34,969 bases of DNA, taken from assembly GCA_020429585.1 (NCBI GenBank), contig JAGQLE010000018.1, positions 1-34,969 on the forward strand, given 5' to 3'. Positions 643-32,828 of this stretch are shown one piece after another. The translations under genes and the position numbers were made by a program. The stretch is from Candidatus Berkelbacteria bacterium. GTDB taxonomy: Bacteria > Patescibacteriota > UBA1384 > JACPKC01. The notes under the pieces are model-generated. The model saw nothing but the letters and a program-made list of their open reading frames with translations. It searched no databases and had not been told where the DNA came from. The stretch's first letter is position 1. Each line of letters opens with the position of its first letter.

Positions 643-2385
643 TTACTTTAGTAATTTGATAAACACGTCGCTTGGGATATCGACTTTACCAAGCTTTTTA
701 AGGCGTTTTTTGCCGGCTTTTTGCTTTTTTAAGAGCTTGTCTTTACGAGATCGGTCGCCACCATAAAGCTTGGCTGTCACGTCTTTGCGCAACGCCTTGA
801 TTGTTTCACGAGCAATAATCTTGCCGCCGATTGCTGCCTGCAAGGTAACCTCAAAATTTTGCTGAGGAATCAATTCCTTAAGTTTTTCGGTAATTTCTCG
901 GCCTCGAGTCTGAGCTTCACTGCTATGGACAATCATTGCCAGCTCATCAATCTCTTCACCGGCAACCAGAATAGATAATTTGATCAACTTGGAATCAGCC
1001 CGATACTCAATAAATTCGTAGTTCATTGAGGCATAACCCGAAGAAACGCTTTTAAGCTTGTCGTAAAAATTAACAATTACTTCGGCTAACGGTAGCTCAT
1101 AACTTAAAACGGCCCGCTGACTCTGGCCGTCATCCGATAAATAAACGGTGTCGATCAATTTACCTCGCCGCGCCTGAGCGATCTCCATAACCGAACCCAA
1201 AAACTGCTGCGGAACGACAATCTCAACTTTAACCCATGGCTCGGAATAAACTTTTTTACCTTGGTCCTGCACCTCTTTGTGGGCGACCGACGGCGTTGTT
1301 ACGATGAGCTCTAGGTTAAACTCCCGCTCTAGCCGCTCGGTTACGATTTCCATATGGAGCAAACCCAAAAAACCGCAGCGAAAACCTAAGCCAAAGGCCT
1401 TAGACGAATCGGGCTCGAAACTTAGTGACGAATCGTTGAGCTTGAGTTTTTCGAGGGCGTCACGCAAACCGACCACATCCCCATCGGCCGCAAACATCCC
1501 AGCGTAAACCATTGGCACAACTTCTTTATAACCAACCAATGGTTTTTGGGCACGATTAGAGGTGCCTGTGATCGTATCGCCAACTCGAGCAGCCGAAACG
1601 TCTTTAACTCCGGTTACAACATAGCCGATCATTCCCACCGCCAAATCTGGCCTGGCAGTCATCTTGGGTTGAAATATGCCCACTTCCAAGGCTTGGTCCT
1701 GGGTATCATTGGACATAAAAACAATTTGCTCGCGATTTTTTAGACTGCCCTCAAAAACCCGAATATAACTAATAACGCCTCGATAGGAATCATAAACAGA
1801 ATCAAAAATCATCGCCTTGAGCGGTTGACCTTCGGCCAACATTGGCGCAGGAATAGTTGTAATAATGCGGTCTAGAATTTCTGCGACTCCTTCGCCGGTT
1901 TTTCCAGAAGCGAAAATGATCTCTTCATCTTTGATCTTTAATAGATCAATTAACTCTTGGGCAACTCGCTCTGGCTCAGCATTAGGCAAATCTATTTTAT
2001 TTACGACCGGTACAATAGTAAGATTCTGATCGATCGCTTGATTGAGAGTCGTTAAGGTTTGAGCTTGGATACCTTGGGAGGCATCAACCAATAGAACAAC
2101 CCCCTCAACGGCCGCTAAAGAGCGCGAAACTTCATAGCCAAAATCGACGTGGCCAGGGGTATCTATTAGATTAAGAGTATAGCCCTGCCAGCTCATTGTT
2201 ACCGGCTGGAGCTTAATCGTAATACCGCGCTCACGCTCTAAATCCATTTGGTCAAGCAACTGCTCTTTCATCAAGCGCTTGTCGACGGTCTGAGTTTGCT
2301 CAAGCATCCGATCTGCCAAAGTCGATTTGCCATGGTCAATATGGGCAATGATCCCAAAATTACGAATTTTACTACTGTTATTCAT
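643..2385 (-). CDS. lepA: Elongation factor 4 (LepA), ribosomal back-translocase GTPase
   Basis: This encodes a translational GTPase of 580 residues, close to the usual ~600. The N-terminus MNNSSKIRNFGIIAHIDHGK carries the P-loop. DTPGHVDF (G3) and NKIDLP (G4) follow, then domain 2, the EF-G-like domains III and V, and the LepA-specific C-terminal domain ending in a Lys-rich stretch and SDVFIKLL. LepA acts on the 30S/70S ribosome in the cytoplasm. An in-frame start 38 codons upstream (2499) exists, but that extension is not LepA-like and would overlap the divergent gene at 2488, so I chose the ATG at 2385. No Shine-Dalgarno precedes it; TGGTAGAAT ends eight bases before the ATG, which suggests a leaderless or nearly leaderless mRNA. 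It is divergent from the surface-protein operon. Confidence 0.97.
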   Translation of the reverse strand: MNNSSKIRNFGIIAHIDHGKSTLADRMLEQTQTVDKRLMKEQLLDQMDLERERGITIKLQPVTMSWQGYTLNLIDTPGHVDFGYEVSRSLAAVEGVVLLVDASQGIQAQTLTTLNQAIDQNLTIVPVVNKIDLPNAEPERVAQELIDLLKIKDEEIIFASGKTGEGVAEILDRIITTIPAPMLAEGQPLKAMIFDSVYDSYRGVISYIRVFEGSLKNREQIVFMSNDTQDQALEVGIFQPKMTARPDLAVGMIGYVVTGVKDVSAARVGDTITGTSNRAQKPLVGYKEVVPMVYAGMFAADGDVVGLRDALEKLKLNDSSLSFEPDSSKAFGLGFRCGFLGLLHMEIVTERLEREFNLELIVTTPSVAHKEVQDQGKKVYSEPWVKVEIVVPQQFLGSVMEIAQARRGKLIDTVYLSDDGQSQRAVLSYELPLAEVIVNFYDKLKSVSSGYASMNYEFIEYRADSKLIKLSILVAGEEIDELAMIVHSSEAQTRGREITEKLKELIPQQNFEVTLQAAIGGKIIARETIKALRKDVTAKLYGGDRSRKDKLLKKQKAGKKRLKKLGKVDIPSDVFIKLLK

Positions 2386-8239: not shown

Positions 8240-9681
8240 TGGCCCAACTTATCTTTAGCTAACGTCAACCGCTTTAATGATTCGTCTTTACCTAAAACCC
8301 ACAAGCACTCGCTCGGGGAAGGAGACTTTTGTTGCCCTGTAAGAGCGACTCGAATCGGCCAAAACAAATCGCCATTCGTAAGATTTTTATGATCTCGCAC
8401 TTCACCCAAAAGACTATTTAACGTCTCTTCAATCTGCCAACCCGCCTCGTCCAGGCTAAACAAAGCCTGATGGGCGAAATCCAAGCCCATCAAACTGGAT
8501 TCAGCCGTTGACTTTTTAAAAACCAAATCTTCTTTTTCATACTCCGGCAGCTCAAAAAAATAGTGGCTGGAACTTTCAAAGTCCGCCAACCTAACTAAAC
8601 GATTCTGAACAACCGTCGCAACTCGTCTGACTAAATCTCGATCCAAATCGGAAGAAATAAAATATTCTAAGCGCTTTGCTAAATCGTCTACAGTCAGCTG
8701 CTTAATATAATGGTTTTGAAAATGGTCGAGTTTGATTGGGTCGAAAACCGCTCCGGCCTTATGGACACGATCAAGACTAAATTTGGCTACTAACTCGTCT
8801 AAACTGAAAAACTCTTGGTCGCCGCCAGCATTCCACCCTAATAAAGCTAAATAATTTACAATGGCTTCGGGCAGATATCCCTGATCACGATAAGTACCAA
8901 TCCAGACACCCTCCCCGTGCACTCGTTTTGAGAGCTTCTTTTTGTCGGTTGCCAAGATTAAGGGCAAATGCGCAAACTCAGGCCGCGGCCACCCTAAACC
9001 GTCATATAACACTAAATGCTTCGGAGTACTGGGCAACCACTCTTCGGCTCGCAAAACATGACTGATCTCCATCAGGTAATCATCGACAACGTTGGCTAAA
9101 TGGTAGGTTGGATAACCATCCGACTTTAGTAAAACTGCATCGTCAACTGTTGCCAAGTCAAAGGTCACTTTGCCACGGACCAAATCATTAAATTCAATCT
9201 TGCCTGCCGGAACTTTTAATCGGATAACCGCTGTTTCACCGTTTGCAAGCCTCTCTCGAGCTACTTCAAGATTTAAGTTACGATCTTCTCCCCTGTAAAT
9301 TACCCGGCCAGCCCTATAAGCTTCATCTTCGAAGCCACCGGAGCCAGCACTAGTCGAAAAATCATAGTAGGCTAAACCCTTCTCTAGTAGTTCTTGGGCG
9401 ATCTTTTGATGACTCTCCAGTCGCTCCGATTGGATATACGGCTCGAATCCCCCACCTTGAACTGGCCCCTCGTCTGGAGCCAATCCAAGCCAATCCAAAT
9501 CAGCTAAAAATCGCTCCATACTCCCCTCGACATAGCGCTCTTGGTCGGTATCTTCGATACGCAAGACGAACTGACCGCCTAAATTTCGCGCAACTAAGTA
9601 ATCATAGAGAGCTGTTCTTGCTCCACCTAAATGAAGCTCGCCTGTCGGCGAGGGTGCAAATCTTACACGCACTTTTTTCAT
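8236..9681 (-). CDS. gltX: Glutamyl-tRNA synthetase
   Basis: This is a class I aminoacyl-tRNA synthetase of 481 residues, a normal bacterial length. The HIGH-type signature is FAPSPTGELHLGGARTALYD near the N-terminus, and the KMSKS-type loop is KKKLSKRVHGEGV around residue 250. The catalytic Rossmann domain is followed by an all-helical anticodon-binding C-terminal half. It charges tRNA-Glu in the cytoplasm. The start at 9681 has AGGA nine bases upstream. It lies 28 bases after rnhB and overlaps murJ by four bases. Whether it is discriminating (Glu only) or also charges tRNA-Gln cannot be told from the window; gatCAB is not present here. Confidence 0.97.
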   Translation of the reverse strand: MKKVRVRFAPSPTGELHLGGARTALYDYLVARNLGGQFVLRIEDTDQERYVEGSMERFLADLDWLGLAPDEGPVQGGGFEPYIQSERLESHQKIAQELLEKGLAYYDFSTSAGSGGFEDEAYRAGRVIYRGEDRNLNLEVARERLANGETAVIRLKVPAGKIEFNDLVRGKVTFDLATVDDAVLLKSDGYPTYHLANVVDDYLMEISHVLRAEEWLPSTPKHLVLYDGLGWPRPEFAHLPLILATDKKKLSKRVHGEGVWIGTYRDQGYLPEAIVNYLALLGWNAGGDQEFFSLDELVAKFSLDRVHKAGAVFDPIKLDHFQNHYIKQLTVDDLAKRLEYFISSDLDRDLVRRVATVVQNRLVRLADFESSSHYFFELPEYEKEDLVFKKSTAESSLMGLDFAHQALFSLDEAGWQIEETLNSLLGEVRDHKNLTNGDLFWPIRVALTGQQKSPSPSECLWVLGKDESLKRLTLAKDKLGQ

Positions 9682-9709
9682 AGCTTTAATCCTAACCTAA
9701 TCGCTCGGT

Positions 9710-10342
9710 TTAAAAAAGTGGCCGAGTCAATTCACGAGCAACTGGTTTAAAACAGGTACGATGAAAGCCAGTTGGACCTAGTGACCTTAGCTCTTGTCGA
9801 TGAAGAGGTGATGGATAGCCTTTGTTCAGATCAAAACGAAACCGTCTTAAATTTTGATGAGTTCGATGCAACGTTCTCATCATTCGATCCCGTTCAACCT
9901 TAGCCACCACTGACGCCGCCGCAACGCAACGGATCGTCATATCGGCTCTCACGTACGCCTTCTGCCGAGTATCAAGCTTTTTAAATTCATAAAGACCGTC
10001 GACTAAAACTAAATCAGGAACAAGTTTTAAGTTACCAATGGCTCGCTTCGCCGCCAATTGCAGTCCCTCGGCCAAACCAAAACTGTTAAGTTCGGACACG
10101 GCGACAATTCCGATCGACCAACTCAAGGCATTTTTTTTGATTCTTCGGGCGAGCCTATCTCTTTCAGACCTTGTCAGTAATTTAGAGTCACGCAAGCCAT
10201 TAAGGCGCAAATTATTCGGCAAAATCACCGCACCCATTACGAGTGGCCCAGCCCAAGACGATCGACCAACCTCGTCTAAACCAGCAATCAGTCCAAAACC
10301 TTGACTCCGATGCTTAGCCTCAAGACTTTCCCGTGGAATCAT
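9710..10342 (-). CDS. rnhB: Ribonuclease HII
   Basis: This 210-residue type 2 RNase H removes ribonucleotides from DNA and RNA primers. The four acidic active-site residues are recognisable: Asp23-Glu24 in GLDEVGR, Asp115 in VLVDG and Asp134 in VRADMTIRCVAAASVVAK. The substrate-sensing GRG motif that normally follows Asp-Glu reads GRS here (residues 26-28, then SWAG), which is unusual. The C-terminus HRTCFKPV is family-like. The start overlaps the yraN stop as ATGA, so the two are co-translated; rnhB-yraN pairing is common in bacteria. Confidence 0.93.
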   Translation of the reverse strand: MIPRESLEAKHRSQGFGLIAGLDEVGRSSWAGPLVMGAVILPNNLRLNGLRDSKLLTRSERDRLARRIKKNALSWSIGIVAVSELNSFGLAEGLQLAAKRAIGNLKLVPDLVLVDGLYEFKKLDTRQKAYVRADMTIRCVAAASVVAKVERDRMMRTLHRTHQNLRRFRFDLNKGYPSPLHRQELRSLGPTGFHRTCFKPVARELTRPLF

Positions 10343-22500: not shown

Positions 22501-23391
22501 ATGAAGTTAAGCATCGCAATCAGAGAATTTTTGGAAGATTGTGAACTGGCCAAGGGCCTGGCCCCAAAAACGATCACTAATTACCAACACTATTTAAATA
22601 GGTTGTTAGAATTTGCCGGTGATATTGATGTCGCACAACTTACAGATAAAATCGTCCGGCAATGGCGTCTCAACCTAAATTCAAGCGGCAAACTCTCGTT
22701 AACGTCGCAAAACTATCACCTTGTTGCCTTAAGAGCGCTCTTGGCTTGGCTAGTGGCTCGCGATATACCCAGCCTACCTCCCAAGAAAATTGATTTACCA
22801 GGCGTCGAACAGCCAGACGTTGTTTTTCTAAACCAACAATCGATCGAAAAACTTCTTGCGGCTCCTGATGCCTCGACTTTAAAGGGCAAACGAGACCGAG
22901 CCATACTTGAGACTCTTTTCTCTACCGGCCTTCGGGTATCAGAGCTAATTTCGCTCAATCGTAAGCAATTCAACGATTCGGACGAACTAAGCATTAAGGG
23001 CAAAGGTGGCAAGCGACGGGTTGTCTTTATTTCCTCTCGGGCCCGCCAAGCAGTCGAAACCTATCTAGGGGCTAGGCACGATACTAACGATGCCCTGTTT
23101 GTACCACTGAGAATCAAAGAGGATGCCGACAACCGCCTCACCCAAAGAAGTATCCAAAGAATTATTTCTGAAACCTCGCGCACAGCTGGCTTGGATGACG
23201 AAATCACCCCTCATACCCTCCGTCATACATTTGCTACAGACCTGCTTCAAGCTGGCGCCGACCTCCGGTCAGTCCAAGCTCTACTTGGCCACTCCTCCGT
23301 CGTCACTACCCAACGCTACACCCACCTTACCGACACTCACCTTAAAGAAGTCCACTCAGCCTTTCATGGAAGGCAGCAGTCCGACAGCTAG
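22501..23391 (+). CDS. XerC/XerD-type tyrosine recombinase
   Basis: This 296-residue recombinase has an N-terminal SAM-like core-binding domain (~1-85, with LAPKTITNYQHYLNRLLEF) and a C-terminal catalytic domain. Catalytic residues are all present: Arg145 (STGLRVSEL), Lys168/Lys171 (GKGGKRR), His238 and Arg241 (HTLRHTFATDLL), His264 (LLGHSS) and Tyr273 (QRYTHL). It probably resolves chromosome dimers at a dif site. I see only one Xer gene in this window and no phage or integron context. The ATG has no Shine-Dalgarno and a -10 box six bases away. Confidence 0.93.
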   Translation: MKLSIAIREFLEDCELAKGLAPKTITNYQHYLNRLLEFAGDIDVAQLTDKIVRQWRLNLNSSGKLSLTSQNYHLVALRALLAWLVARDIPSLPPKKIDLPGVEQPDVVFLNQQSIEKLLAAPDASTLKGKRDRAILETLFSTGLRVSELISLNRKQFNDSDELSIKGKGGKRRVVFISSRARQAVETYLGARHDTNDALFVPLRIKEDADNRLTQRSIQRIISETSRTAGLDDEITPHTLRHTFATDLLQAGADLRSVQALLGHSSVVTTQRYTHLTDTHLKEVHSAFHGRQQSDS

Positions 23392-31117: not shown

Positions 31118-31863
31118 TGGCACCAGACGACGAAATATTAGAACAACTCAAGGTAGTCTCGAAACGCAACTCCTTACCTGCCCAGTTTTTGCGAGGTATT
31201 GTCTTTGGCATTGGCTCAGTCATCGGCATCGCTTTTCTCGTCTACCTTTTACTACCAGCTCTGGAAAAGCTACCGGTTGTCGGTCAACTTTTAGAAGAGG
31301 AGGTAGCACCACCTATCCAGGAGACCGCGGATACCAAACTGCCAAGCGCTCTGCAGCAACAATCCAATTCGACCAATACGACCACTCCATCAACAACGAG
31401 CAATAGTACTATTTCCGGATCGTCAAAAATTAAAGCCGATTACTACTCCGTTGTCTTGCCGGCTGGTTGGAACCTATCTCTTAAGGAAAACAACCAAGGC
31501 ATACAACTTAGCCGCCTCACCGCCGAAAGTGACGATTTTGCCAGCCATACCGACGATGCAGCCGACGGGCCGTTCACCCCTATTTATTACGATTCAGGCG
31601 CCGTTATCACGATTCATGTTACCGAACCGGCGGACTCAGGCGAGCATGGCCAAGTTTTTGAGGAGAAAGAAGTTGACGTCGATGGTGAAACTGCTTTGTG
31701 GCATCAATTTTCTGAGCCGAGCACCTTTTCCGGCGTCCAGTACGACGTCCACTTCGACCACGCTGGCCGTTCTTACCTAATTCAATTTGCCGCGGCTGAC
31801 AGTGTTACTGATGCCGAAGTAATATTTAATACTATCCTTGATTCGTTTGAATTCGTCGACTAA
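31117..31863 (+). CDS. Membrane-anchored protein, possible MacB-system partner
   Basis: The protein has 248 residues. Residues ~10-60 (RNSLPAQFLRGIVFGIGSVI, then a transmembrane segment to LLLPALEKLPVVGQLLEEE) resemble the DUF5665-type anchor seen in CPR. A Ser/Thr/Asn-rich linker follows (~75-105), and residues ~110-248 form a beta-rich outer domain (YYSVVLPAGWNLSLKENN, GAVITIHVTEPADSGEHG, VQYDVHFDHAGRSYLIQFAA). The outer domain has a PsbP-like feel, but I cannot name it. It overlaps the permease and the Nudix gene (TAATG at both ends). Confidence 0.82.
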   Translation: MAPDDEILEQLKVVSKRNSLPAQFLRGIVFGIGSVIGIAFLVYLLLPALEKLPVVGQLLEEEVAPPIQETADTKLPSALQQQSNSTNTTTPSTTSNSTISGSSKIKADYYSVVLPAGWNLSLKENNQGIQLSRLTAESDDFASHTDDAADGPFTPIYYDSGAVITIHVTEPADSGEHGQVFEEKEVDVDGETALWHQFSEPSTFSGVQYDVHFDHAGRSYLIQFAAADSVTDAEVIFNTILDSFEFVD

Positions 31864-32369
31864 TGGGCGATCCTAAGCCAACTCACTTAGCGGTTACGGT
31901 TTTTCTCCGCCATGGCGACGACGTCTTGCTTATGAAAAGGTCGCCCCACAAAAGCCACGAGCCCAATAAATTCTGTGGCGTCGGAGGCAAAGTTGACGAC
32001 GGCGAAACGATTATAGAAACATCTGTCCGGGAAACCAAGGAAGAAGCAGGTATCACACTGGCTCCGGAAAAGTTCGTTTCCCGCGGCCAACTTGTTCTTG
32101 ACGGCTATCCCGAAGCCCGCTGGGCTGTCTCACTTTTCGAGGCTTGGCCACAAGATCGCCAAGTTGCCAATAACGACGAAGGCGAGCTGATTTGGGTACC
32201 GATTAACCAAGTCGCCCAAACGGATTTAATGGACGACATCCGTTATTACGTTGAAGAAATTCTTAATTCTCAAAAGAATATTTTTGGCCACTTTATGTTT
32301 AAAGGTGATACCGTTGTCGACCACACTCTCCAGTTCCTAGAAAAAATGGAATTACAACCAACAAGCTAA
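31863..32369 (+). CDS. Nudix hydrolase, MutT/8-oxo-dGTPase-like
   Basis: The protein has 168 residues. The complete Nudix box (residues 42-64) starts GKVDDGETIIETSVRETKEE and ends AGI. HLAVTVFLRHGDDVLLMKR before it is typical of MutT/NUDT1-type enzymes, and the PNKFCGVGGK lead-in supports a nucleotide substrate. Which nucleotide cannot be read. It is the last gene of the operon from 28418 and overlaps the preceding stop (TAATG). Confidence 0.92.
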   Translation: MGDPKPTHLAVTVFLRHGDDVLLMKRSPHKSHEPNKFCGVGGKVDDGETIIETSVRETKEEAGITLAPEKFVSRGQLVLDGYPEARWAVSLFEAWPQDRQVANNDEGELIWVPINQVAQTDLMDDIRYYVEEILNSQKNIFGHFMFKGDTVVDHTLQFLEKMELQPTS

Positions 32370-32435: not shown

Positions 32436-32441
32436 TATAAT
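32436..32441 (+). promoter_or_regulatory. Consensus -10 box overlapping the inverted repeat
   Basis: TATAAT here overlaps the left arm of the 13-base inverted repeat. TTAAGT at 32413-32418 is a weak -35 at 17 bases. A transcript would start near 32448, inside the left arm, so only the inner part of the stem would exist in that RNA. Confidence 0.35.
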
Positions 32442-32591
32442 GCGCGGCGGTACATGCAAAGTTTACGCCAGGAACGCAGTTATTGGAAAGTAAATTTGGT
32501 ATATACCGAGTATGCGAAGTCGTGAGCGACGAGCAGAACGAGGCAAAGCCGCCGCGCATTAGGCAAAAGAGCGAAGCGATTTTACCTAATG
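32438..32591. repeat. Inverted-repeat element, candidate structured RNA or MITE
   Basis: TAATGCGCGGCGG (32438-32450) and CCGCCGCGCATTA (32549-32561) are perfect 13-base inverted repeats separated by 98 bases. A second hairpin, CATTAGG-C-AAAA (32557-32568) with TTTT-A-CCTAATG (32580-32591), shares CATTA with the right arm, so the two stems exclude each other. Inside lie the small hairpin GTCG-TGAG-CGAC (near 32519-32530) and the palindrome GGTATATACC. No transposase, tmRNA, RNase P or SRP signature is recognisable. Confidence 0.6.
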
Positions 32592-32743
32592 GATGATACT
32601 AACTACTATCTTTCCGATTTATTAAATACAAATTCAAATATCTAAGGTCATTTCTTGTTCAAGGAAAACGAAGTTGTTCGCCACAATCTCCAACTGGTCG
32701 CCGAACCTGCTCTAGCTACCTAGAATTTTCAGTTCTTTTCAAG

Positions 32744-32778
32744 TATAATTCCTCGCGACTAGCAAACTAGCTAGTCGC
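32744..32778 (+). promoter_or_regulatory. -10 box and 5' hairpin of the second Nudix gene
   Basis: TATAAT (32744-32749) is followed by GCGACTAGC (32755-32763) pairing perfectly with GCTAGTCGC (32770-32778) around a six-base loop. The hairpin would sit at the extreme 5' end of the mRNA, where it could protect it from decay. The AGGAG of the GTG start lies about 40 bases further on. Confidence 0.55.
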
Positions 32779-32828
32779 AAAAATGCCAAAAGGCCCAAAT
32801 AGAGCTAATCCCAACTAGGAGTGAGGTA

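Follow-up and report, generated by a model that had tools for sequence, protein, structure and literature searches.

Integron integrases use bottom-strand folding, and the attC sites on which they act are imperfect inverted repeats with R'', L'', L' and R' boxes and a G^TT core (PMC2727003). Gene-less integron cassettes are known as well, some of them with promoter activity (PMC11014356; PMC6557892), and the integrase IntI1 uses lax secondary sites of the form 5'-GNT-3' (PMC10127599). A 2021 review of integrons does not have the Patescibacteriota in its list of integron-bearing phyla (PMC8618304), and no report of integrons in this phylum was found in the open-access literature, although such an absence is weak evidence. 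The element considered here lies at positions 32441-32589 of a 34,969-nt contig (JAGQLE010000018.1, assembly GCA_020429585.1; this whole stretch is called the window) of a Candidatus Berkelbacteria bacterium from this phylum. With a probability of about 0.82 we read it as a lone copy from a family of integron cassettes that spans the phylum and lacks any open reading frame (ORF); the cassettes would be mobile, would mask their own recombination site or compete for it, and would be represented in the window by a relic. Its membership in the integron cassette class is well supported.

The top strand of the cassette corresponds to the minus strand of the window and the bottom strand to the plus strand. 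Read along the top strand, the family has the order S1 (GTTxxxx), a hairpin, S2 (xxxxAA[CT]), the GC-rich segment g2, S3 (GTTxTGC), arm B, S4 (xxxxAAC), L''...L', a spacer and R' ([GA]^TT). The part from S4 to R' looks like a canonical attC, and an attC finder detects it as such in two of the other loci (L087 9111-9191 and L089 11628-11709). In an outer stem, P1, the partners of S2 and g2 are the L' end, the spacer and the R' core; in a hairpin, HP1, S1 pairs with S2. Since S2 is used by both, and the R' core by both P1 and the S4/R' attC, the three structures partly exclude one another. The element has the boxes, the G^TT core, the imperfect inverted repeat and the better bottom-strand fold of the attC sites described earlier (PMC2727003). 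It differs from them in having two candidate R'' boxes, S2 and S4, for a single R'. In addition, the spacer, which is normally unpaired, is paired in the S2 fold, the S1 hairpin competes for S2, and the core is often A^TT with a compensating AAT. The ORF-less cassettes of Vibrio superintegrons (PMC11014356) and of oral Treponema (PMC6557892) likewise lack an ORF, are bounded by integron cores and end in an attC. These are, however, heterogeneous and were studied for their promoter activity, whereas the cassettes described here form one homologous family in which a second fold pairs the attC core. No homologous cassette family with such a conserved second fold was found in the open-access literature, which again is weak evidence.

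A preliminary description of the window reported a perfect 13-base inverted repeat 98 bases apart and a second hairpin sharing a CATTA with it. Both are present; the repeat matches at 13/13 positions (TAATGCGCGGCGG and CCGCCGCGCATTA), the 12-nt arms of the second hairpin match at 92%, and the shared CATTA lies at 32557-32561. Compared with dinucleotide shuffles the fold has z-scores of -4.74 and -4.68 on the two strands, and 0/200 shuffles were as good. The competition between the two stems noted at that time also holds in the relatives, where the arms are conserved and show compensatory changes. In 16 copies the arms of P1 form 190/190 Watson-Crick pairs, as compared to 63% when arms are swapped between copies, and 0/20000 permutations do as well. 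In the alignment 98.9% of P1 is paired and seven of its 12 pairs are compensated, HP1 is 96.3% paired over 16 copies with five of ten compensated, and the inner attC stem is 90% paired with six of nine compensated. The covariation scores are above those of all 500 shuffles, and they drop about fourfold or more when the partners are slid. When the R' core changes from G to A, the AAC of S2 becomes AAT.

No second copy of the element was found in its own genome (790 kb, estimated to be 99% complete), but copies do occur in relatives. A search of 60 related genomes gave two, of 82% and 78% identity, both in a candidate division WS2 bacterium (ADurb.Bin280, MWBO01000006.1; G042). A pattern scan of genome contigs gave one true match, again in G042, and four that were taken as chance. 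A covariance model (CM) built from three copies then recovered three further ones in a cassette array of genome G004; a CM match in G036:C85 was rejected as a tandem repeat. With a core model built from seven copies, scoring of the ten best candidates in each genome gave matches in at least 20 of the 380 genomes that were sampled from the phylum, amounting to about 30 copies. The cassettes of the family are about 140-190 bp long and contain no ORF.

Recombination points bound the copies. In G042 the attI reads AAAAACGAG^TTATCC, and the first copy (c1) sits there, starting exactly at the attI-like G^TT and ending at the A^TT where a methylase cassette starts; another G042 copy follows the last attC. 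In genome G048 the element occupies this attI position as well. The other copies examined start at an R^TT belonging to an attI or attC; those that are complete stop at C[GA]^TT, and the first bases of the next cassette come after it. The first bases are complementary to the copy's own R'' in about 11/16 copies, as judged by inspection of alignment A5, and the sequence of every gene cassette examined reads at its start as the complement of that cassette's R'' box. In the window copy this complementarity is absent.

In larger regions the copies are interspersed with gene cassettes and often stand first in the array, adjacent to an IntI-like integrase. In G283 they lie beside an IntI gene; in G175 and G162 they head arrays without a nearby integrase. 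With attC geometry taken as R'' (..TAAC), 1-3 nt, L'', ..., L', 4-6 nt and G^TT, attC sites are found around the element copies, as compared to 0-2 in shuffled sequence. The stretch from c1 to the second G042 copy (c2) holds two sites of this geometry (0-1 in shuffled sequence), together with genes for a possible restriction enzyme and a DNA methylase and one further ORF. The first gene cassette of this WS2 integron (L010 5156-6591) may be a restriction-modification pair, consisting of a weak UpaP162-type match and an N6/N4 DNA methylase. In both G042 and G045 the array adjoins what by reading is a ribosomal protein L25 gene (rplY).

Some derivatives of the element were also seen. At L085 (region 9067-10236, minus strand) and L074 (near 1501-1589, minus strand) there are minimal forms with the P1 stem and a tiny loop alone, in L085 for instance AACGTGGCGCGGATATTCATCCGCGCCACGTT at a cassette boundary, which suggests that P1 alone is able to act as an attC. 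At L046 in G004 there are two cassettes (918-1205 and 1464-1691) in which the element is joined, immediately after GCACAACTGTC, to a 5'-truncated gene that differs between the two; Pfam identifies one of these genes as MazG, and the other reads as MazG-like. This hints that deletion or fusion recurs at this point.

The c1 copy lies just upstream of a tyrosine recombinase gene (L010 3892-4749, minus strand). The best NCBIfam matches of this protein are to the integron integrase model TIGR02249 at 228.4 bits, below the curated cut-off of 265, and to NF040815 (site-specific tyrosine recombinase/integron integrase) at 225 bits, above the cut-off of 220. Homologues occur together with attI/attC arrays at L014-L020, L067, L068, L069, L080 and L081, and at the last five of these the integrase is at most 1.5 kb from a copy of the element. 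Seven other genomes of the class have integrases that are 59-68% identical to that of G042, and the readable regions upstream of these have a motif in common that resembles attI (..AAAAACGAG^TT or a variant of it). The integrase is present in 48/380 genomes of the phylum and in 12/20 of the element-positive ones (hypergeometric p = 2.6e-7).

As the copies often precede gene cassettes in the arrays and have two mutually exclusive folds, the element could be a regulatory non-coding RNA or a promoter cassette, that is, a leader transcript of the downstream cassettes in which a P1/HP1 switch controls expression. The preliminary description had similarly suggested a switch-like RNA. However, the element gave no score above the gathering threshold of any Rfam family and no tRNA or tmRNA match. 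The TATAAT noted earlier at the left arm does exist (32436-32441, plus strand), but it has no matching -35 and no sigma-70-like promoter was found around it, so that it was rejected as a promoter; the greater part of the box belongs to the cassette junction, where the sequence of other copies varies. There is no G-U pair among the 190 P1 pairs of the 16 arm pairs counted, and three on the alignment that also includes c2. The mini-hairpin GCGAAGC, which has been noted as stable DNA in aptamer work (PMC4686876; PMC6582339), was found 18 times on the bottom strand and 0 times on the top strand, and with DNA parameters the bottom strand has the more stable fold in 16/16 copies. Strict Watson-Crick pairing in P1, mini-hairpins confined to the bottom strand and the stability of that strand favour single-stranded DNA recombination over RNA, and suggest that the fold is built for it. 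Together with copy ends that coincide with recombination points, this makes a regulatory RNA or promoter role unlikely.

Two other origins were rejected. The fold looked 5S-like, but a 5S rRNA or any other known RNA is contradicted by the negative Rfam result. A phage origin was rejected as blastn against phages and pattern scans of viral contigs were negative. RF00001 was in fact unmatched in the entire genome at E up to 10 despite the 99% completeness; probably the rRNA was lost in assembly, or the 5S is divergent.

A short ORF-less element with inverted repeats, found in several near-identical copies in G162, G297 and G004, also invites comparison with a classical miniature inverted-repeat transposable element (MITE) or transposon relic of the DDE or HUH/REP type that inserts near integrons by chance. 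A regulatory MITE had been proposed for the window, and in so far as this means a non-autonomous mobile element the proposal comes close. But the copies examined are bounded by attI/attC cleavage points, no target-site duplication was found at their boundaries (the TTA at both ends being that of the core), and the association with IntI is strong, so a true transposon origin is very improbable and an attC/attI-bounded cassette takes its place. A chance inverted repeat or replication-linked cruciform private to its own genome would agree with the single copy there, but this barely credible idea, for the cruciform part of which no support was obtained, is already refuted by the conserved homologues with compensatory changes and by a z-score of about -4.7.

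The integron cassette is linked to the integrase by proximity and co-occurrence. It would be moved by IntI acting on its bottom strand in folded form, and its second fold may mask, or compete for, the R' core of the attC and in this way tune excision. A more far-reaching version is that of a selfish gene-less cassette with two nested recombination sites on one R' core, where a single-stranded DNA switch between S1/S2, S2/R' and S4/R' sets an active or a masked attC for IntI, giving self-regulated excision; we regard this as possible but doubtful.

The window copy stands outside any array. On the minus strand it reads CATCCA^TTAGGTAAAATCG...GCCGCGCA^TTATACGCC (32589/32590 to 32440/32441), with an A^TT at its start in a flank that is not that of an integron. 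The gap in which it lies is not quite gene-free as had been stated, since a remnant of a NUDIX pseudogene starts only a few bases from the recombination point (tblastn with the intact NUDIX paralogue: E 4e-13, 49% identity over 43 aa). The two G004 copies at L046 are similarly joined to genes truncated at the 5' end. The window copy was probably delivered by off-target insertion at CCA^TTA (A^TT) into this NUDIX paralogue, which would then have lost its 5' part by deletion. Its S4, here GCATAC, has lost the AAC through later decay. Since S4 also lacks complementarity to S1, the copy is probably an immobile relic with a dead attC. No integron integrase was detected in the own genome, which encodes a Xer-like recombinase at window positions 22501-23391 and gives TIGR02249 matches of 80 and 36 bits. 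This resembles the clusters of attC sites lacking integron integrases (CALIN) and the lone cassettes at secondary sites (PMC10127599), which also lie outside an integron in an integrase-less genome and at a lax-core-like insertion point. In contrast to these, a single degenerate copy abuts a pseudogene here, and the core is A^TT, not GNT.

Several points weigh against the cassette interpretation. No copy has been caught moving. The copies in the P1 statistics were partly chosen for having P1, some copies have no P1 (c2 and G004 a-c), and template-switch correction of imperfect palindromes, rather than function, could keep P1 perfect. Some near-threshold matches, as well as the genome G075 that is positive with model R2, may be false. 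The flanks of the window copy show no array and its S4 R'' box is degenerate, and both NUDIX genes are unmatched in two family relatives (G001 and G002), so there is no empty site for comparison. The integrase is about 43 residues shorter than IntI4 (2a3v), the shortfall falling between residues 184 and 199. This is just before HxLRH, and 58 residues separate KGxKxR and HxLRH in 11/12 homologues read. The partner enzyme thus does not have the IntI-specific insertion before the H-x-L-R-H motif; the absent stretch presumably holds the IntI-specific helix. Because of this shortness and the score below the IntI cut-off the enzyme is called only IntI-like, and an IntI-type mechanism is assumed by homology.

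With the cassette interpretation, integron arrays with an IntI-like integrase that is without the usual IntI insertion are documented in tiny candidate-phylum bacteria with reduced genomes, as is a conserved, covarying structure in which another sequence of the same cassette pairs with the attC core. The family would also be a testable case for how gene-less cassettes persist and for a possible self-regulation of excision.

Table 1. Parts of the window copy of the cassette and neighbouring NUDIX sequences (window coordinates).
Feature	Position	Strand	Basis
ORF-less integron-type cassette, 149 bp, lone copy	32441..32589	-	CM R1 138 bits, CM R2 82 bits (this copy was among those used to build both models); boundaries from comparison with copies in arrays
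Left recombination point, minus strand CCA^TTAGGT (S1 box)	32589..32590	.	Homologous to the attI/attC R^TT that starts other copies
Right recombination point, minus strand GCGCA^TTATACG (R' core)	32440..32441	.	Homologous to the C[GA]^TT that ends complete copies
S1 box arm of hairpin HP1	32580..32591	-	96.3% pairing of HP1 (16 copies)
S2 box (GCCTAAT) arm of HP1, its CATTA also in outer stem	32557..32568	-	Covariation
Outer stem P1, 5' arm (S2 end and g2)	32549..32561	-	Covariation
Outer stem P1, 3' arm (L' end, spacer, R' core; includes 3 nt of flanking TTA)	32438..32450	-	Covariation
S3 box GTTCTGC, start of arm B	32533..32539	-	Alignments A4, A5
Arm B inner hairpin GTCGTGAGCGAC	32520..32531	+	Fold
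S4 box, inner attC R'', GCATAC, degenerate here (other copies xxxxAAC)	32511..32516	-	Alignments A4, A5
Inner attC L'' arm GGTATATACC	32498..32507	-	Equivalent to L'' detected in L087, L089 by attC finder
Inner attC L' arm GCATGTACC	32449..32457	-	Equivalent detected in L087, L089 by attC finder
Intact NUDIX hydrolase paralogue	31863..32369	+	Pfam NUDIX 64 bits
NUDIX pseudogene remnant, 5'-truncated, internal stop, abuts element	32586..32714	+	tblastn with NUDIX 31863-32369

Beyond the remnant, a terminator-like hairpin (GCGACTAGC/GCTAGTCGC) is found on the minus strand at 32750-32783, upstream of the second NUDIX gene, and it is no more than shuffled sequence would give.
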